In this document: positions 1 to 6,863 of the stretch, piece by piece
Layout: every line of letters begins with the position of its first letter
How positions within the stretch are numbered: position 1 is the stretch's first letter
Origin: Phocaeicola plebeius
Lineage (GTDB): Bacteria > Bacteroidota > Bacteroidia > Bacteroidales > Bacteroidaceae
Direction: 5' to 3'
Assembly: GCA_022767125.1 (NCBI GenBank)
Contig: JALEPZ010000092.1
Span: forward strand, 1 to 54,834
DNA: 54,834 bases
Position numbers and translations under genes: made by a program
Notes under the pieces: generated by a model
Told to the model about the DNA's origin: nothing
What the model saw: the letters and a program-made list of their open reading frames with translations, nothing else
Databases searched by the model: none

Positions 1-1024
1 ATACCTTGCCGATACATTCGGCAGGGAGAATATCGTGTCGGCAGTCCTACACATGGACGAGCAGACACCGCACATACACGCCACCCTTGTCCCGATAGTC
101 AAAGGTGAGCGCAAACGCAAGAAGAAAGAGGAACAGGTGAAGAAGCGATACCGCAAGAAACCGACAGACACAGCCCGACTGTGTGCCGATGAGATTATGA
201 CACGTGCCAAGCTCAAATCCTATCAGGACACCTACGCCCAAGCCATGAGCGGTTACGGGTTGCAGCGTGGCATTGACGGCTCAGAAGCGAAGCATATCAC
301 CACACGGCAGTATTACCGTGATCTGATGCAGCAGACGGAACAGTTACGAACAGACATCGGACAACTACAAGACCGAAAGGAAACGGCACAGGAAGAACTG
401 AAACGAGCCAAGAAAGAGGTGCAGACCGAGAAGCTGAAAGGTGCAGCCACAACAGCTGCCACCAACATAGCGGAAAGTGTCGGTTCTCTTTTCGGAAGTA
501 ACAAGGTCAAGACATTGGAGAGGGAGAATGCCGCATTGCATCAGGTAGTTGCCACCCACGAAGAAACCATCGAAACGCTGCAAAGTCAAATACAGACCAT
601 ACAGGCAGACCACAGCCGTCAAGTGTTGGCTATGCAGCAGAAGCACATCAAGGAATTGCAGGTGAAGGAAATCGAACACAAGAAAGAGGTGGCAGGGCTT
701 ACTATCTTGTTGAACAAGGCAGTAAGATGGTTCCCTCAAATAAAGGGTATGCTCAATCTCGAAAGGGTGTGCCTTGCCGTAGGTTTCAGCCAAGAGCAGA
801 CGGCGGTACTGATGATGGGCAAGCCCATTGAATATAGCGGTGAACTCTATTCAGAAGAACACAAACGGAAATTTATGGCAAAAGAGGTCATAGCCAAAGT
901 GTTCTCTGACAATGGAAAGTTTATCCTTACGATTGACTTGCAACCGATTGGGGCTTGGTTCAAGGAGCAATTTGAGAAGTTAAAGCAAGGTCTCAATGTT
1001 CGGCAAAGTCAATTCAAACTATAA
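1..1024 (+). CDS. MobV/Pre-type relaxase, 5'-truncated by window edge
   Basis: Mobilization relaxase that nicks oriT and starts conjugative transfer of a mobilizable element. The reading frame is open from base 2, so the start lies outside the window. The GTG at 35 falls inside the conserved catalytic block and is not a start. The metal-binding motif of the MobV/Pre family, HMDEQTPHIHAT, lies at about 50-85 and has the expected histidine triad (H-x-DE-x-TPH-x-H). A basic stretch follows, then a long coiled coil (about residues 95-215 counted from the GTG), then a C-terminal region without recognisable features. The motif III spacing and coiled coil are typical of Bacteroides mobilizable-element Mob proteins. 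It ends in a TAA, followed by a dyad and the promoter of the next cassette. The family call is firm; the kind of element (plasmid, IME or ICE) cannot be decided here. Confidence 0.88.
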   Translation, partial: YLADTFGRENIVSAVLHMDEQTPHIHATLVPIVKGERKRKKKEEQVKKRYRKKPTDTARLCADEIMTRAKLKSYQDTYAQAMSGYGLQRGIDGSEAKHITTRQYYRDLMQQTEQLRTDIGQLQDRKETAQEELKRAKKEVQTEKLKGAATTAATNIAESVGSLFGSNKVKTLERENAALHQVVATHEETIETLQSQIQTIQADHSRQVLAMQQKHIKELQVKEIEHKKEVAGLTILLNKAVRWFPQIKGMLNLERVCLAVGFSQEQTAVLMMGKPIEYSGELYSEEHKRKFMAKEVIAKVFSDNGKFILTIDLQPIGAWFKEQFEKLKQGLNVRQSQFKL

Positions 1025-1038
1025 ATCGAAGTGAAAAC

Positions 1039-1073
1039 CGTGATATTTGGCACTTTATAAGTGTTATATCACG
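1039..1073. repeat. two-arm inverted repeat between relaxase gene and nuclease/DUF262 cassette
   Basis: CGTGATAT (1039-1046) pairs with ATATCACG (1066-1073). Nested inside, CACTT (1051-1055) pairs with AAGTG (1059-1063) around TAT. The dyad begins 14 bases after the relaxase stop and ends 10 bases before the -7 box at 1083. It could be the relaxase terminator (no clean T-run follows) or an operator over the -33 region of the next promoter. The symmetry is seen directly; the role is inferred. Confidence 0.6.
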
Positions 1074-1082
1074 GATATTTTG

Positions 1083-1090
1083 TACTTTTG
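1083..1090 (+). promoter_or_regulatory. -7 promoter box of the nuclease/DUF262 cassette
   Basis: TACTTTTG matches the Bacteroidota -7 consensus TAnnTTTG and lies 33 bases upstream of the first ATG at 1123. No good TTTG is seen at the -33 spacing; that position falls in the dyad at 1039-1073. Confidence 0.55.
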
Positions 1091-1122
1091 TAATGGTTTA
1101 TAAAATTTTAATCGTTTAATAG

Positions 1123-2340
1123 ATGACAGATACTCTTAATTGGAATTTTTTCAGTGAGACATATCACCTAAAAAATGATAAATACGTTCAAGATGTTGCT
1201 TTGCTACAAAGGTTACAAAGGACTGATTGTTACCCCGTGATATTGTATCCTGAGTTACTCTGTGAACAATTAGCGAAAAAATTTTTGATTGGTTCTGTTG
1301 GTGTTGGGAAAGATAAATCTCATATCTTCCTCCATGATTTCTTAAATGCAGCCAAGCAGTTGAACATTAAAGGTGATGACTGGCAATTTTTGATTCATCC
1401 ATTTAATCCTAAGGATGCTACTGTGCCACAAAGACCTCATATACCGACAGAAAAAACAGAATGTTATGAGTCGCATAATTGGGGATGCTTGATTCCTGTA
1501 CTCATAATGGTCATTCTTTTTACACTTCCTGCATTTTTTATATCACCAGAAGACCCAGGGTTAGGTGTAATTGTTGCAATTTTATGGATTCCATTCATTT
1601 TGCTCATGGCACATAAAATGGGTGTTGGAAAATCTGAGACAAAAGTGCGGACAAGGAAATTAACACAGCATGAAATTAATCAACTGGAACAGGAGGCATT
1701 AAAGAAATATCAAAATAATCTTGAGGCATATCGAAAATTAAGAGCAGAGTACGATGATAAAAAAATGGAATTTGAACAACGCTTAGATTCACAAGCTAAA
1801 TTGCTTGATAGGCATTCTAATCGTATCGTTGCATCAATATTTAAGCGTTGCTTAATAACTTATCATCAACTGAAAAATAACAATGAACCTCCGCAACGGG
1901 GAGCTTCCGAGAATGATTTATTCTATGCTTTAATGAAGGAATTTCCTTCTTATATTAAGATAGATAAGGTTCTTGGAGCATACTCTCCAGATTTGGTTTT
2001 ATATAATGGTTGTTCATGCCCTATTGATATAGAAATTGATGAACCTTATGAATTTCAAACAAAGAAAGAAATTCATTATATTGGGGGTGGAGATGAAGAA
2101 AGAAATAAGTTCTTTGTCCAAAACAATTGGTTTGTTCTTAGGTTTTCTGAGAACCAAATAAATAACCATCTCAAAGAGTGCGTAAATATTGTTAAAGCAT
2201 TGGTTGATTTTATAGAATGGGGAGACACTTCAAAATTATATAACGTTGAAAAAACTATTGCAAATATCCAAGAGCAGCGCTGGACTAAAGAACAATCAAG
2301 GATGTTTGTGATAGAAAATTATCGTTCAAAATATAGATAA
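1123..2340 (+). CDS. two-TM membrane protein with C-terminal PD-(D/E)XK-like nuclease domain
   Basis: A 405-residue protein I cannot assign to a named family. N-terminal residues 1-110 look soluble. Two hydrophobic segments at about 122-140 and 146-164 form a hairpin anchor. A charged helical, probably coiled-coil stretch follows (176-230). The C-terminal region from about 258 resembles the PD-(D/E)XK nuclease fold of the Vsr/DUF559 kind: E263 in the first helix, P289-D290, then IDIEIDEPY (301-309) with E304 where the central acidic residue is expected, and a later FVLRFSE segment. The usual lysine of E-x-K is D306, so catalysis is plausible but unproven. The gene is AT-rich against its surroundings. 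It ends one base before the DUF262 start (TAA-A-ATG), so the two are probably translated together. Likely role: the effector of a two- or three-gene defence-type cassette carried on a mobilizable element (inference). Confidence 0.7.
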   Translation: MTDTLNWNFFSETYHLKNDKYVQDVALLQRLQRTDCYPVILYPELLCEQLAKKFLIGSVGVGKDKSHIFLHDFLNAAKQLNIKGDDWQFLIHPFNPKDATVPQRPHIPTEKTECYESHNWGCLIPVLIMVILFTLPAFFISPEDPGLGVIVAILWIPFILLMAHKMGVGKSETKVRTRKLTQHEINQLEQEALKKYQNNLEAYRKLRAEYDDKKMEFEQRLDSQAKLLDRHSNRIVASIFKRCLITYHQLKNNNEPPQRGASENDLFYALMKEFPSYIKIDKVLGAYSPDLVLYNGCSCPIDIEIDEPYEFQTKKEIHYIGGGDEERNKFFVQNNWFVLRFSENQINNHLKECVNIVKALVDFIEWGDTSKLYNVEKTIANIQEQRWTKEQSRMFVIENYRSKYR

Positions 2341-2341
2341 A

Positions 2342-3520
2342 ATGAGCAACAATAGAATATATTATGGCGAGTATTCATTAGCCTATTGGATACAGATGAT
2401 ACTCAAAGGCAATATAGTACTACCTGAATATCAACGTACATTTGTATGGAATAAAGATGATTATACTAATCTGATTGATTCATTTAAAGAGAAACAATTC
2501 ATACCTCCTGTTACTATTGGAGCTTACAAAACAACCAATGGGCAAGATAACTTGATTATTGATGGGCAGCAAAGGCTCACATCTGTATTTTTGGCATATA
2601 TTGAACGATTTCCCAAAAAGGAAGCAGGAACTGGAAATATAGAGAATCTTGTAAATGAAAACGATGATGACTCAGATGATGATGAACAGGAAAACATGAT
2701 AGAATGGACTTTCAAAGATCTATTAGCAAAAGGTAACAACAAAGGGGAAATTATTGCGAAATGTCCTCAAGAAAAATATGAAATCCTCGACCATCTGGAT
2801 GACGACTTCTTTAATAAGAATTTTTTGGGTTTTGCATATATTGTACCTTCAACGAGTACAGAGGAAGAACAGCAGAAGTTTTTCTCCACCTTGTTTAGAA
2901 ACATCAACATACGTGGAAAATCTCTTTACGTATTGGAAAGCCGAGCTTCCCTTTACTTCCTGAACCATCAGCTCAAAGAGTGGTTTAATCCTGAATTTTG
3001 CAAAGAAATATCAAGTAGTATCGTGGATAAGTCCCGAAAAAGCAGCATGGACTTTGTTCGATATGTAGCACTGCTCTCACAATATAAGAAAAAAGGCTCG
3101 GAAAGAGGCATTGGATACGGATATGCAAGCAAAATGGAGAACTATTATGAAACATACATATATTCTGTTGTCGGTAATAAAGACTCTATCATATTCGGAA
3201 AGTTTAGCGATATTTTCACTGACAAAAATTATAAACCATATCTTGACGAGATAGACAGGCTTATTACGGAATTAAATTATAGAAGACGTTTTCAATCAAT
3301 CATAGACTTGGATCTTTATTTTTTCGGGCTTATCTATTTTACCGCTTTTGAAAAACGGGTATTAGATACATCCAGAAAAGATGCATTAGAGGGAGAATTG
3401 AAAAATGCAATCAATGATATTAAAGGTAATGGTCTGCATACAAAATCACCTGCATGCCTTAAATATTTACGTGAAAGAATTTTCAAATCAATTGAAATCT
3501 ATCAGAAATATCTAAATTGA
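2342..3520 (+). CDS. DUF262 domain protein (GmrS/ParB-like NTPase-nuclease family)
   Basis: A 392-residue DUF262 protein. Signatures are LPEYQRTFVW (about 27-36) and DGQQRLTS (74-81), the ParB-like nucleotide-binding/nuclease motif of this family. An acidic insert with many D and E residues lies at about 103-118. DUF262 proteins include the GmrS half of type IV GmrSD restriction and the N-terminal part of SspE. Here the protein stops without a visible DUF1524/HNH domain, so any nuclease partner must be separate; the upstream PD-(D/E)XK-like membrane protein is the obvious candidate. The start ATG follows the previous stop by one base, and the next ORF starts two bases after this stop. AT-rich composition matches its cassette neighbours. 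The family call is firm, the defence role is inferred. Confidence 0.85.
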   Translation: MSNNRIYYGEYSLAYWIQMILKGNIVLPEYQRTFVWNKDDYTNLIDSFKEKQFIPPVTIGAYKTTNGQDNLIIDGQQRLTSVFLAYIERFPKKEAGTGNIENLVNENDDDSDDDEQENMIEWTFKDLLAKGNNKGEIIAKCPQEKYEILDHLDDDFFNKNFLGFAYIVPSTSTEEEQQKFFSTLFRNINIRGKSLYVLESRASLYFLNHQLKEWFNPEFCKEISSSIVDKSRKSSMDFVRYVALLSQYKKKGSERGIGYGYASKMENYYETYIYSVVGNKDSIIFGKFSDIFTDKNYKPYLDEIDRLITELNYRRRFQSIIDLDLYFFGLIYFTAFEKRVLDTSRKDALEGELKNAINDIKGNGLHTKSPACLKYLRERIFKSIEIYQKYLN

Positions 3521-3522
3521 CA

Positions 3523-3801
3523 ATGAGTGTACATTCTGACTTTATACTAGCGCCTGTATCAAACATTTTGTGTGATACATCCACTATAACCCAATCCATG
3601 AGTTGGGGAATAGAAATGTATCCATTGTGGGACAATATCATGCAATCTATCTTCATGAAAATGACAGGTGCGCAAGAGCAAAAAATGAAATGTATATGCT
3701 GGGAAATCGCCACCATAGACTTTGATTTGCGACGTGATATATACTTTTCCTGGAATTTGAATGAATGTTCCCAAATAACTGATAAAAGAAAAGTGACATG
3801 A
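3523..3801 (+). pseudogene. third cassette gene, 3' end cut off by the IS3-family element
   Basis: An open frame of 92 codons starting at ATG 3523, two bases after the DUF262 stop. It continues the AT-rich composition and codon use of the cassette. The product has a helical, charged segment around GAQEQKMKCICWEIA. I do not recognise the family; a HEPN-like helical protein is a guess. The last codons (3794-3801) and the stop lie in the left inverted repeat of the IS, so the natural C-terminus is lost and the protein is probably truncated. The rest of the gene is not found on the far side of the IS. Alternative: a short natural gene that ends at this position by chance. Confidence 0.5.
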
Positions 3802-3818
3802 TACAGATTTACTTCACA
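3794..3818 (+). repeat. IS left inverted repeat
   Basis: Starts TGACATGATACAG and ends ATTTACTTCACA. It overlaps the stop codon of the truncated cassette gene. It pairs with the right repeat at 5312-5336, perfectly over the inner 12 bases and imperfectly outside. Confidence 0.75.
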
Positions 3819-3847
3819 CGTAATTAACAATTAAATCGTGTAGTATC

Positions 3848-4255
3848 ATGTCAAAAGTAAGTGTAAAACGACAACAATTCAGTATGGATTTTAAGCTCCA
3901 GTTGCTGAAAGAGTATTATGAGAGCGGCAGCTCGATGTATAGCATAAGTAAGAAACATGGGATTGATGATGTGACATTTCTTCGTTGGGTCAAGTCCTTT
4001 GAATCAAAATCATTATCTTTGCCAGAGGAATTGAGCGAATTAGAGAATCAGATATATATGGTACGTAAGAAATCCATAGACGGGAAGCCTTCCCCTGAAA
4101 TGACGGAACTTGAGAGGCTCCGTGACGAGAACCTCCGTCTTCGTAAGGCCTTGTCGTATTCCGAACTGCGCAATGAGGCCCTCCATGAGGTTCTGAAAAT
4201 AGGTCGCGACCGATATGGTATAGACCTGCTAAAAAAAGCTGGCGCCAAGCAGTAG
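3848..4255 (+). CDS. IS3-family transposase OrfA
   Basis: A 135-residue DNA-binding half of the transposase. It has an N-terminal helix-turn-helix (FSMDFKLQLLKEYYESGSS to about TFLRWVKSF) and a C-terminal leucine-zipper-like helix (ELERLRDENLRLRKAL). OrfA proteins recognise the element ends and, as free protein, repress transposition. The frame passes through an A7 run at 4231-4237 and stops at 4253-4255; a -1 slip there produces the OrfAB fusion. The start at 3848 is the first ATG inside the left end, 30 bases from the inverted repeat. Confidence 0.9.
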   Translation: MSKVSVKRQQFSMDFKLQLLKEYYESGSSMYSISKKHGIDDVTFLRWVKSFESKSLSLPEELSELENQIYMVRKKSIDGKPSPEMTELERLRDENLRLRKALSYSELRNEALHEVLKIGRDRYGIDLLKKAGAKQ

Positions 4256-4302
4256 ACACCCTTCGGCTCAGGCATCCCGATGCCTCCATCGGGAGCCTGA
4301 GC
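4231..4302 (+). other. programmed -1 ribosomal frameshift signal of the IS
   Basis: Seven consecutive A at 4231-4237 are read as A-AAA-AAA in the orfA frame, a standard slippery heptamer. A one-base slip back joins orfA to the frame that runs open to 5115. Downstream is a long stem: GCTCAGGC (4266-4273) with GCCTGAGC (4295-4302), extended by CCCGAT (4276-4281) with ATCGGG (4288-4293). The spacer of 28 bases is longer than usual for a stimulatory structure. Confidence 0.8.
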
Positions 4303-5115
4303 GGACTGTTTGGCAAGAGCCGCGAAGGTTATTATTCTGTAAGCAAGGAGAAGCGCATGCGTAAGGAACTGTCCGAAACAGAGGTCATCACTACAGTGAA
4401 GGAAATCCGTAGTCAGGCTCCCGGAATCGGAGCCTATAAGCTTTTTCTGATGCTCCGTGAGTTGTATCCCGAAGAGATGAAGGGACGCGACTGGTTCTAT
4501 AGACTGATGCATGAGAACCATCTTATGCTGAAGCCACTGAAACGCCGCCATACGACAAATTCCAATCATAACTATCGTAAATACAGTAATTTGATAAGAG
4601 GAATCTCTATCGTACATGCCAACCAGTTGTGGGTGGCCGACATTACTTATATAGACACGGATACGGGAGTTGTCTATCTGCATCTGCTCACTGACGCGTT
4701 TACCCATGAGATCATCGGATGGGTCCTCTCTGACAGTCTTGTCTCCTCCAATACCGTGGCTGCCTTGGATATGGGCATCGAGAAAGTCGCATATCTGGGG
4801 TTTGAGGGATTGATTCATCATTCCGACCGTGGTGTCCAATACTGCTGTAACCTGTATATAGAACATCTGGAGGCTATCAATGCCACCGTCAGCATGACGG
4901 AGGACTATAAGCCTACGGACAATGCCATAGCAGAACGCGTGAACGGCATCATCAAGCAGGAATGGCTTTATAAGATGAAACGTCCCCATGACCTTGAAGA
5001 AGCGAGGAGATTGATGACTGACATTATTGAGTTCTACAATACCAAGAGGCCACACAGAAGCAATACGAACATGTTGCCGCCCAAAAGGATGAGGGAGTCG
5101 CTCTATGTACATTGA
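4237..5115 (+). CDS. IS3-family transposase OrfB (DDE integrase), made as OrfAB fusion
   Basis: Catalytic half of the transposase. After the -1 shift the frame continues SWRQAVDTLRLRHPD and then SGLFGKSREGYY, the N-terminal region usual for IS3 OrfB, before the internal ATG at 4357. The rve/DDE catalytic triad is complete. Numbered from the ATG at 4357, it is D95 (WVADITYID), D157 (HHSDRGVQY) and E193 (AIAERVNG), with the 35-residue D-E spacing of IS3 elements. No internal stop or deletion is seen, so the element appears intact. Translation mainly by frameshifting is inferred from the slippery site; initiation at 4357 would remove part of the N-terminal domain. Confidence 0.92.
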   Translation, partial: SWRQAVDTLRLRHPDASIGSLSGLFGKSREGYYSVSKEKRMRKELSETEVITTVKEIRSQAPGIGAYKLFLMLRELYPEEMKGRDWFYRLMHENHLMLKPLKRRHTTNSNHNYRKYSNLIRGISIVHANQLWVADITYIDTDTGVVYLHLLTDAFTHEIIGWVLSDSLVSSNTVAALDMGIEKVAYLGFEGLIHHSDRGVQYCCNLYIEHLEAINATVSMTEDYKPTDNAIAERVNGIIKQEWLYKMKRPHDLEEARRLMTDIIEFYNTKRPHRSNTNMLPPKRMRESLYVH

Positions 5116-5180
5116 AAGGCTCAATGGAGGCTTTGCGCCTCCAGCCGCAAGGCTTCCTCCGCAGTGTTTTTCATGATTGA

Positions 5181-5211
5181 TTTGCATTGCTAAATAAAGT
5201 GCGTATCTTTG
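5181..5211 (+). promoter_or_regulatory. outward-facing promoter near the IS right end
   Basis: TTTG at 5181-5184, a 19-base spacer and TATCTTTG at 5204-5211 match the full Bacteroidota promoter. It lies in the non-coding tail of the IS and points into the chromosome. The predicted transcript starts near 5218 and contains a hairpin (ATCCTGT near 5247 with ACAGGAT near 5272). No plus-strand gene follows; the first gene met is fucP on the opposite strand. Confidence 0.6.
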
Positions 5212-5311
5212 TACTTGTGAACTGGATTAGGAACAACAAACAAATCCTGTAAAGCATCTTAGGAAAACGATACAGGATATATGAAGTAAAGTAGTAAATA
5301 AACAAATAATC

Positions 5312-5336
5312 TGTGAAGTAAATTCAGTCATAGTCA
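5312..5336 (-). repeat. IS right inverted repeat
   Basis: TGTGAAGTAAATTCAGTCA followed by TAGTCA. Its complement matches the left repeat at 3794-3818, perfectly over the innermost 12 bases. It ends directly against GAACGAAGTGAGAAATC, a chromosomal repeat also found at 42578. Confidence 0.7.
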
Positions 5337-5373
5337 GAACGAAGTGAGAAATCTGTTAGAGCAAAGTAGATGT
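5337..5373 (+). repeat. half copy of dispersed palindromic repeat at the IS junction
   Basis: By eye, 34 of 37 bases match 42578-42614, including GAACGAAGTGAGAAATCTG. The full copy at 42.6 kb is preceded by TGTCATTTC and has a right arm. This copy lacks the upstream part, which is replaced by the IS end, and has no right arm. It marks the chromosome side of the junction. Confidence 0.75.
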
Positions 5374-5392
5374 GACAACTGGCCCAAAAAAC

Positions 5393-5480
5393 GCAGGTAT
5401 CTGCGTTGGCTCTTGCAGGTATCTGCGTTGTGCATCGCAGGTATCTTCGTTGAGCATCGCAGGTATTGCTGTGTTATGAC
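5393..5480 (+). repeat. 22-bp tandem repeat array, four units, palindromic core
   Basis: Units start at 5393, 5415, 5437 and 5459, exactly 22 bases apart. The first two share GCAGGTATCTGCGTTG; the third reads GCAGGTATCTTCGTTG; the fourth keeps GCAGGTAT and then diverges. The core of units 1 and 2 is a small palindrome, GCAG-GTAT-CTGC. No gene lies in 5337-5558. Function unknown. Confidence 0.8.
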
Positions 5481-5483
5481 GAA

Positions 5484-5510
5484 GGAGGGTGTGAAATTGA
5501 CACACCCTCC
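5484..5510. terminator. hairpin downstream of fucP
   Basis: GGAGGGTGTG (5484-5493) pairs perfectly with CACACCCTCC (5501-5510) around a 7-base loop, 49 bases past the fucP stop. No strong T-run flanks it on either strand, so it is a candidate terminator or RNA-stabilising stem. Confidence 0.5.
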
Positions 5511-5558
5511 CTTATGGAAACAGCGGGTACATCCGCTGCAAGTATCACGGATGGCGGC

Positions 5559-6863
5559 TCATCGTTTTGTGGTGCGGTGTCCGTAGATGGTCACCATGAT
5601 GAAACAGATGAGCGGAAGAACAAAGGAGAGGTTGACAGCCGGGAAACCACCGATGGTGCCCATGTCGATGATGGAAGCCTGCATAGGCGGCAGTATCGAA
5701 CCGCCCAGGATGGCCATAATCAGACCGGCGGCACCGAATTTCGTGTCATCGCCCAGGCCTTTCAGGGCAATACCATAAATGGTGGGGAACATGAGTGACA
5801 TGCAGGCCGATACTCCTACCAGGCAATAGATGCCCCAATAGTTCTGGAAACTGATGACGCCCAGCGTACAGATGCAGGCTGCAATCGCCAGTGTCTTCAG
5901 CAAGGCGCCCGGATTGAAGTATTTCAGCAGGAACGTGCAGATGAAGCGGCTGGCGCAGAAGATGCTCATGGCAATGATGTTGTATTTCTGTGAGAGGACT
6001 TCTGCCTCCTGTTCTCCCATGCCGTAGGAGGTGAACAGGCGCGTTCCGTACTGGATGATGAACGTCCAGCACATGATCTGTGCGCCTACATAGAAGAACT
6101 GGGTGATGACCCCTTCGCGGTAGTTGGCTACACGGAAAATGCGGCGCAGGGTGGGGAGGAAGTCAATCCGTTTGTTCTGGTCGGTGTAGCTGGGCATCTT
6201 CTTCAGACGGATGACGATGAGCATGATGAGAATGACAGCACCGATGATGAGGTAGGGAGTGACCAGGGTATTCAGGTCGGCATCCCGGATTACCTCGAAT
6301 TCTTCCTGCGAGAGGGTGGCACGTTCGGTCGTGTCCATGGGATGCAGGCGGTTCTGGATGAAATTCATGGCCACATACATGCCCAGCAGCGACCCCATCG
6401 GGTTGAAGGCTTGCGCCATGTTGAGGCGGCGGGTCGCCGTTTCCTCCGATCCCATGGAGAGGATGTAGGGATTACAGCTGGTTTCCAGGAACGACAGGCC
6501 GCAGGTGAGGATGAAATAGGCCAGCAGGAAGGGGTAATAGTTGCCCATCTTCATGGCCGGATAGAACAGGAAGGCGCCGAAGGCATACATGCCCAGACCG
6601 AGCAGGACACCGGCCTTGTAGGTGTAGCGACGGATGAACATGGCTGCCGGGAAGGCCATGGCGAAGTAGCCTCCATAGAAGGCGACCTGTACCAGGGTGC
6701 CTTCGGTGACACTCATCCGGAAGATTTTCGAAAAGGCTTTCACCATGGGGTTGGTGATGTCGTTGGCAAATCCCCATAGGGCAAAGCAGGAGGTAATGAG
6801 AATGAAAGGTACGACATAACTGATGTTGCCGTCGTGTAGGATACGTTGGTTGTTTTTATTCAT
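5559..6863 (-). CDS. fucP: L-fucose:H+ symporter
   Basis: A 434-residue major-facilitator permease of the FucP family (fucose/glucose/galactose:H+ symporters) in the inner membrane, with about 12 hydrophobic segments. FANDITNP in the first helix and FLETSCNPY in the fourth carry acidic residues at the positions of the substrate/proton residues D46 and E135 of E. coli FucP (alignment by eye). It is the last of three same-strand fucose genes, 85 bases after fucO. The adjacent lactaldehyde reductase and fucose isomerase make L-fucose the likely substrate. No own promoter is seen in the gap, so it probably shares the transcript with fucI and fucO. Confidence 0.9.
   Translation of the reverse strand: MNKNNQRILHDGNISYVVPFILITSCFALWGFANDITNPMVKAFSKIFRMSVTEGTLVQVAFYGGYFAMAFPAAMFIRRYTYKAGVLLGLGMYAFGAFLFYPAMKMGNYYPFLLAYFILTCGLSFLETSCNPYILSMGSEETATRRLNMAQAFNPMGSLLGMYVAMNFIQNRLHPMDTTERATLSQEEFEVIRDADLNTLVTPYLIIGAVILIMLIVIRLKKMPSYTDQNKRIDFLPTLRRIFRVANYREGVITQFFYVGAQIMCWTFIIQYGTRLFTSYGMGEQEAEVLSQKYNIIAMSIFCASRFICTFLLKYFNPGALLKTLAIAACICTLGVISFQNYWGIYCLVGVSACMSLMFPTIYGIALKGLGDDTKFGAAGLIMAILGGSILPPMQASIIDMGTIGGFPAVNLSFVLPLICFIMVTIYGHRTTKR

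Follow-up and report, generated by a model that had tools for sequence, protein, structure and literature searches.

Do three closely spaced genes behind a relaxase form a single defence system, or are they separate passengers of a mobile element? The question is raised by a 54,834-nucleotide stretch of Phocaeicola plebeius DNA (GenBank assembly GCA_022767125.1, contig JALEPZ010000092.1, positions 1 to 54,834 of the forward strand), here called the window at its full length. At its left end, a relaxase gene is followed by genes for a membrane-anchored nuclease-like protein (P1) and a DUF262 protein (P2), and by a short third open reading frame (ORF). An initial annotation, made from the sequence alone, had described a candidate defence cassette in which the nuclease had been split off from the DUF262 protein onto a membrane-bound partner. 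The annotation is partly supported: its reading of the sequence was right, and the combined system it proposed finds no support. We read the locus, with a probability of about 0.78, as variable cargo that follows the relaxase gene on a mobilisable Phocaeicola element and is made up of two independent modules: a stand-alone, membrane-held DUF559/Vsr-like nuclease (P1) and a DUF262-HEPN-like pair that was probably disabled by an IS3-type insertion sequence (IS). This removes a false combined system and puts two testable units in its place.

Independence of the nuclease and DUF262 genes in relatives

The nearest relative of P1 is found in Phocaeicola intestinalis (83% identical; loci L039 and L051), where no DUF262 gene adjoins it. 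A relaxase gene lies upstream there as well (36% identical to the relaxase of the window), and downstream stands an unrelated gene of 256 amino acids (aa) with a WG-repeat match just below the cut-off. DNA homology between the window and L039 extends from 1061 to 2340 (83%) and stops at the P1 stop codon, that is, exactly between P1 and P2; a separate block covers 12-338 within the relaxase gene (70%). The nearest relatives of P2, on an IMG/VR contig (L132, 44% identical) and in a genome of the same bacterial family as the window (L133/L134, 42%), lie in loci in which P1 was not found. Since the P1 relative lacks DUF262 and the P2 relatives lack P1, the two genes belong to separate modules.

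The same separation is seen across the wider family. Genome contigs were scanned with one peptide pattern, which gave 244 pattern matches and 212 P1 relatives, of which the best 80 were kept, and the counts are no census. The P1-family set comprises 92 loci (L039-L130), or 91 after removal of L051, which is identical to L039; it omits the genome of the window and a second genome with a 37-aa stretch (G202), both of which are among the seven phylum-sample matches given below. Many of the P1-family and DUF262 loci end at contig ends. A DUF262 profile seeded with P2 and 29 further DUF262 genes, which recovers the non-seed DUF262 genes of L132, L134, L137 and L139, detected DUF262 in 2/91 P1-family loci. 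One of these (L116) holds a complete GmrSD of 565 aa with both halves, on the same strand and upstream of a P1-family gene for which the hydropathy scan gives no membrane helix; in the other (L100) the DUF262 frame, of 699 aa, runs on the opposite strand. A lack of further loci with both genes had been set beforehand as the result that would refute the combined system, and short DUF262 genes were present in 0/91 loci, long ones in these two. In the reverse direction, a P1-nuclease profile found no match in the 29 other DUF262 loci (L010-L038, with about 1.5 kb of flank) or in seven of them taken with wider flanks; it matched 5/5 positive controls; four of these had contributed rows to the profile, leaving L116 as the single independent control.

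The predicted membrane-tethered nuclease and its family

The two-helix membrane anchor and coiled coil first assigned to P1 are both borne out by prediction. Kyte-Doolittle hydropathy is maximal at residues 122-140 and 145-163, the AlphaFold2 model has helices at 123-140 and 145-165, and residues 182-244 form one predicted helix consistent with a coiled coil. The model was built on an alignment of 43 family sequences, hand-picked from the window and the 80 P1-family loci and consisting mainly of members with membrane helices; its mean predicted local distance difference test score (pLDDT) is 83.9, and every 10-residue block from 261 to 400 scores at least 90. With this high confidence the C-terminal region is predicted as alpha-beta-beta-beta-alpha-beta (helix 261-273; strands 282-284, 291-293 and 301-306; helix 324-333; strand 337-342), which is the PD-(D/E)XK order, and a nuclease fold is thus present in the model at 258-345, where it had been anticipated. 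The top Protein Data Bank (PDB) match in Foldseek is 3hrl, a putative endonuclease-like protein (probability 1.00; template modelling score 0.85 by target length). The nuclease residues originally singled out stand at the positions first stated; of them, E263, D290 and E304 are invariant in hand-picked P1-family alignments (n=10, 50 and 43) and P289 is variable; positions invariant across the 43 members include G260, E263, D290, D302, E304, D306, E307, H318, D324, R327 and E343, among others. DUF559 is matched by 14/43 members (best expectation value, E, 4e-6) and MTES_1575 by 1/43.

Several observations weigh against this assignment: P1 itself matches no Pfam family, a PDB sequence search of P1 returned no relative, the 3hrl match has a Foldseek E of just 0.13, and an aspartate stands where the catalytic lysine is usual (E304-I-D306). 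DUF559 proteins likewise have an aspartate at this position. As modelled, the P1 C-terminus is a PD-(D/E)XK core of the DUF559 type with conserved E, D and ExD, and nuclease activity is predicted for it. P1 differs from the DUF559/Vsr-like PD-(D/E)XK nucleases (MTES_1575; 3hrl), to which it is tied by the DUF559 matches of its family and by its fold, in its additional N-terminal region, two membrane helices and long coiled coil, and in having no Pfam family.

Nearly all of the 80 best P1 relatives come from records titled Bacteroidota or cyanobacteria. P1 is present in 2/61 genomes of the genus Phocaeicola and matches in 7/296 genomes of a phylum sample, the genome of the window being counted in both. 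Relatives also occur in 41 plasmid records (sequences were fetched for 6), at least 30 of which bear cyanobacterial genus names; by PLSDB typing, 25 are conjugative and 5 mobilisable. P1 had no match among viral contigs and phage records. Hydropathy places two membrane segments ahead of the motif in 42 of the 91 loci, one in 12, three in 2 and none in 35, and many of the members without such segments are Nostoc-type forms of about 205 aa. Five Bacteroidota loci (L043, L044, L085, L122 and L130) carry a P1-type nuclease domain inside long ORFs of 657-996 aa.

The majority of P1-family genes lie outside tight operons, since their neighbours are mostly on the opposite strand, distant or missing. 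The 3' gene is not close on the same strand in about 73/91 loci (41 opposite, 27 on the same strand at more than 30 bases, 4 with none), nor is the 5' gene in 66-72/91 (32, 34 and 6, respectively). An AAA+ gene of one family (about 525 aa if complete) lies downstream of the P1-family gene in 16/91 loci, within 30 bases in 12, and a gene of about 250 aa, again of one family, lies upstream in 14/91, within 30 bases in 9. The 16 AAA+ loci derive from the organisms of 13 records, two loci coming from each of three genomes; every record has a cyanobacterial title, and most are presumably Nostocales. The AAA+ protein matches PF00004 (E 5.6e-21), and the CDC48 and anti-phage ATPase IteA models far below cut-off. 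In the cyanobacterial operon, a gene of about 250 aa without Pfam match is joined to a P1-family membrane nuclease (about 300 aa) and an AAA+ ATPase (about 525 aa), as in L069:1692-5015, L080:4805-8039, L094, L115, L124 and others. In a Bacteroidales metagenome-assembled genome (L052:5968-8158), an AbiH gene (PF14253, E 2.6e-46) shares 11 bases with the end of the gene for a full-length P1 relative of 447 aa (30% identical). Single neighbours elsewhere include an EcoEI-type helicase (L059), a NERD-UvrD helicase (L066) and a relaxase about 1.1 kb away (L055). In two cyanobacteria (L106:3491-5683 and L121:3488-5680), a 730-aa gene overlaps the start of the P1-family nuclease gene by 4 bases; the L106 copy matches YpsA-type SLOG, with a weak match to a DUF488 model as well. 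Taken as raw counts, these neighbourhoods are suggestive and fit defence or mobile cargo, no more.

P1 is probably defence-related cargo. Held at the inner membrane by its two helices and coiled coil, it would most simply cut incoming DNA, on entry or at the membrane, serving the element in defence or competition. The PADLOC results stand against a defence role: P1 matched no model, and the 43 family members matched four models, each in 1/43 (E 0.0036-0.0093). P1 could alternatively be a plasmid or element maintenance protein, or an entry-exclusion protein directed at conjugative DNA arriving at the membrane, and not a defence protein. Such a role would suit the relaxases that adjoin P1 in the window and in L039 and lie near its relative in L055, as it would the relatives in 41 plasmid records, 25 of them conjugative and 5 mobilisable. 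The family is also found beside AbiH, EcoEI-type helicase and AAA+ genes, however, and in chromosome-titled records, and we hold this alternative to be possible and rather doubtful.

The family looks undescribed: no PADLOC model was matched by P1, and the open-licence literature searched yielded no description of a DUF559 nuclease tethered to the membrane. Only tentatively can its members (YPxxxYP, two helices, coiled coil, DIEIDEPY; Bacteroidota and cyanobacteria) be pictured as an exchangeable membrane effector, which would act alone on mobile elements or be coupled to the protein of about 250 aa and the AAA+ ATPase in filamentous cyanobacteria, to AbiH in a Bacteroidales genome and to the DUF262-HEPN pair here. 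If defensive, the family would add a nuclease sited where DNA enters the cell. Its lasting interest lies in the membrane-tethered nucleases themselves and in their cyanobacterial AAA+ operon, a concrete candidate system that is invisible from the window alone.

The DUF262 gene and its interrupted partner

The second module centres on P2, in which GmrSD_N (PF03235) at residues 19-206 is the only family above cut-off and whose translation contains IIDGQQRLTS with its DGQQR motif. GmrSD_C (PF07510, DUF1524/HNH) was not found by Pfam in P2, P1 or the third ORF, in keeping with the first description of P2 as a DUF262 protein without the HNH half. P2 thus has the GmrSD_N domain and DGQQR motif in common with GmrSD, BrxU and SspE, and differs from them in that the DUF1524/HNH half is missing from it and from the adjoining ORFs. 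In PADLOC its best match is NsnA (E 8e-11, residues 9-359), and it also matches PD-T4-2_A (E 1.1e-10, residues 17-83). We take the name NsnA to denote a component of Menshen (NsnA-NsnB-NsnC), which has in common with P2 a DUF262 protein without DUF1524. In contrast to Menshen, no OLD-type nuclease or AAA gene stands beside P2 among the six ORFs scanned (2-5112) and the partner of P2 is unrelated; P2 was not assigned to Menshen because the OLD/AAA partner is absent.

On sequence comparison, the conserved partner of P2 is the third gene, not P1. The DUF262 genes of L132 and L133 are followed by genes of 236 and 229 aa that overlap them by 8 and 11 bases, and the third ORF is 49% and 40% identical to the respective N-termini. 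Given this homologous gene of about 230 aa after DUF262 in the relatives, the third ORF represents the first 90 or so codons of the P2 partner. The third small gene of the initial annotation is therefore real as an ORF and mistaken as an extra component, being the truncated start of the partner gene, broken by the IS3-type element. A Pfam match of the third ORF to GOLD_2 (E 3.4e-4, below cut-off) was taken as chance.

The pair appears in few of the collections searched. Profiles of the P2 clade (E 1e-15 or better) and of the partner (E 0.001 or better) each match only the genome of the window and one other (G290) in a 345-genome phylum sample, the G290 matches lying on two contig ends. Among 251 sampled genomes of the family, the third ORF was matched in its own genome and in G840, from which L133 was taken. 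The third ORF had no match in plasmid records, phage records or, beyond its own genome, the 296-genome phylum sample; nor had the full-length partners, one compared with plasmids and the other with phages. Against viral contigs, the partner alignments matched only the contig already found through the third ORF. P2 as a single query had no match among viral contigs and the P2-clade alignment found two loci there, one of them that same contig, so a single-protein scan misses relatives.

The partner is likely a HEPN protein, a label drawn from motif and gene order. Both full-length partners contain HRNRCAHN, an R-X4-H motif ending in AH as in five RiboL-PSP HEPN proteins. Among the 29 other DUF262 loci, 8 have frames of at most 400 aa, and in 5/8 the next gene is a HEPN_RiboL-PSP gene above the Pfam cut-off; of the rest, L031 is followed by an AAA_15 gene and L013 by an unrelated ORF, and L024 runs into a frame resembling the HNH half of GmrSD. 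Other results tell against the label. The two full-length partners match nothing in Pfam or NCBIfam, hhalign against the five RiboL-PSP HEPN proteins gave a probability of 0.1%, the AlphaFold2 model of the L132 partner is unusable (pLDDT 41), and one of the two partners matches AbiD weakly (E 7.6e-4) and HEC-08 more weakly. PDB sequence searches gave nothing usable.

The DUF262-partner pair is of a known kind, because operons that combine HEPN families with genes of the ParB type, a label under which DUF262 is tabulated, were described in 2013 (PMC3710099), and a review table lists PD-T4-2 under DUF262 and HEPN alike (PMC10952713). PD-T4-2, an anti-T4 system of E. coli ECOR65, resembles the P2 pair in this listing and in the PD-T4-2_A match of P2, and its deletion in the native strain is reported to raise T4 plating (PMC9519451). 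It differs in that the match spans residues 17-83 of P2 only and that the partner in the window lacks a RiboL-PSP HEPN match and is truncated; as the third ORF breaks off near codon 90, the two genes of a PD-T4-2-like pair are not both intact here. By analogy with the sensor role of SspE and BrxU (PMC10952713), P2 may sense modified or foreign DNA through an NTP-binding DGQQR pocket; it would then release or activate an RNase-type partner, a pairing modelled on PD-T4-2.

In this assembly the partner gene ends at the IS. The third ORF aligns with its L132 relative up to base 3795, the left end of the IS was placed at 3794 and the ORF terminates at a stop codon within the IS. The inverted repeats from which the ends were inferred are identical at 16/27 first bases; the element has HTH_Tnp_1 and rve domains, with transpos_IS3 (E 1.9e-9) below its cut-off. 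The C-terminal half of the partner, which would hold the RX4H part, was not found in the window or elsewhere in the 93%-complete assembly. With the partner cut after about 90 codons and this presumed effector half missing, the DUF262 module is probably inactive in this genome. A point against such inactivation is a possible assembly error at the IS, in which case the pair would be intact in the organism. The IS flanks, AAG (left) and GAA (right), show no target duplication, and the genome, assembled in 125 contigs, also holds incomplete copies of related IS, of which three lie at the start of a contig. These pieces reach only 75-87% identity across some 180-640 bases, with 95% in one 60-base piece, and so do not represent the same copy, and the missing half of the partner turned up nowhere else; we regard an artefact as improbable.

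Two observations weigh against full independence of the modules. L116 indicates that a P1-family gene is able to adjoin a DUF262 gene, and nuclease genes of different families stand directly 5' of the DUF262 pair in the window (P1) and in L134 (YhcG), a pattern that might point to a loosely attached third component. In L134:5631-8792, from the same bacterial family as the window, the gene concerned encodes a YhcG/DUF1016 PD-(D/E)XK nuclease and lies 11 bases 5' of the DUF262-partner pair. A DUF262-HEPN core with an upstream PD-(D/E)XK nuclease of any family as interchangeable effector would match this layout in two of the three loci with a visible upstream gene; the third, L139, shows by eye a nucleotidyltransferase-like ORF followed by one of 484 aa, and L132 is cut by a contig end. 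The comparison covers just three loci, YhcG is widespread among Bacteroidota, the P1 block of L039 has no DUF262 and P1-family genes occur alone elsewhere, all of which makes such an arrangement quite unlikely. Very unlikely is the original proposal of a single defence unit, with P2 as DUF262 sensor and P1 as its membrane-bound nuclease split off onto a separate protein, a proposal for which the one-base gap and common low guanine-cytosine (GC) content in the window, the same-strand GmrSD gene of L116 and the YhcG gene of L134 may be cited, and against which stand the nearest relatives of P1 and P2, each without the other, the 0/91 count of short DUF262 genes and the break of homology between P1 and P2.

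Features of the locus

Features of the two modules and their surroundings are collected in Table 1. The arrangement of the three AT-rich genes behind a relaxase is as first described, with spacings of 1 and 2 bases between P1, P2 and the third ORF and GC contents of 34%, 34% and 36%, compared with 49% for the relaxase gene and 54% for the window. The third ORF starts at 3517 or 3523 (94 or 92 aa) and ends at 3801. The mobile context is likewise confirmed, the upstream gene matching NF041497 (MobV; E 2e-29; 103 bits, cut-off 100) and Mob_Pre (E 7.7e-18); the locus lies at the left end of its contig.

Table 1. Coordinates of annotated features in the window
Feature	Coordinates	Strand	Evidence
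MobV-family relaxase, C-terminal part (5' part off contig)	2..1024	+	NF041497 and Mob_Pre matches
P1, 405 aa, membrane-anchored PD-(D/E)XK/DUF559-type nuclease-like protein, frame intact	1123..2340	+	
P1 predicted transmembrane helices (two), residues 122-140 and 145-163	1486..1611	+	Kyte-Doolittle and model
P1 predicted nuclease domain, about residues 250-404; E263, D290, E304, D306, H318 and R327 invariant	1870..2334	+	
P2, 392 aa, DUF262 (GmrSD_N) without GmrSD_C/HNH	2342..3520	+	PF03235, E 1.8e-21
Third ORF, 5' part of DUF262 partner gene (probable HEPN protein)	3523..3801 (about 3523-3793 original)	+	
IS3-type insertion sequence (ends deduced from its inverted repeats)	3794..5336	+	
IS transposase OrfA	3848..4255	+	
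IS transposase OrfB (integrase core)	4357..5115	+	PF00665, E 3.4e-18

Window DNA 1-6000 had no match in plasmid records. Between the relaxase gene and P1, at 1038-1074, a perfect 9-bp inverted repeat was seen by eye (CCGTGATAT / ATATCACGG), and the DNA homology with L039 begins between its arms, at 1061. The ORFs beyond the IS were read by eye as fucose-pathway genes. Just to the right of the IS, at 5392-5466, are three copies of a direct repeat with 22-bp spacing (CGCAGGTATCTGCGTTG...).

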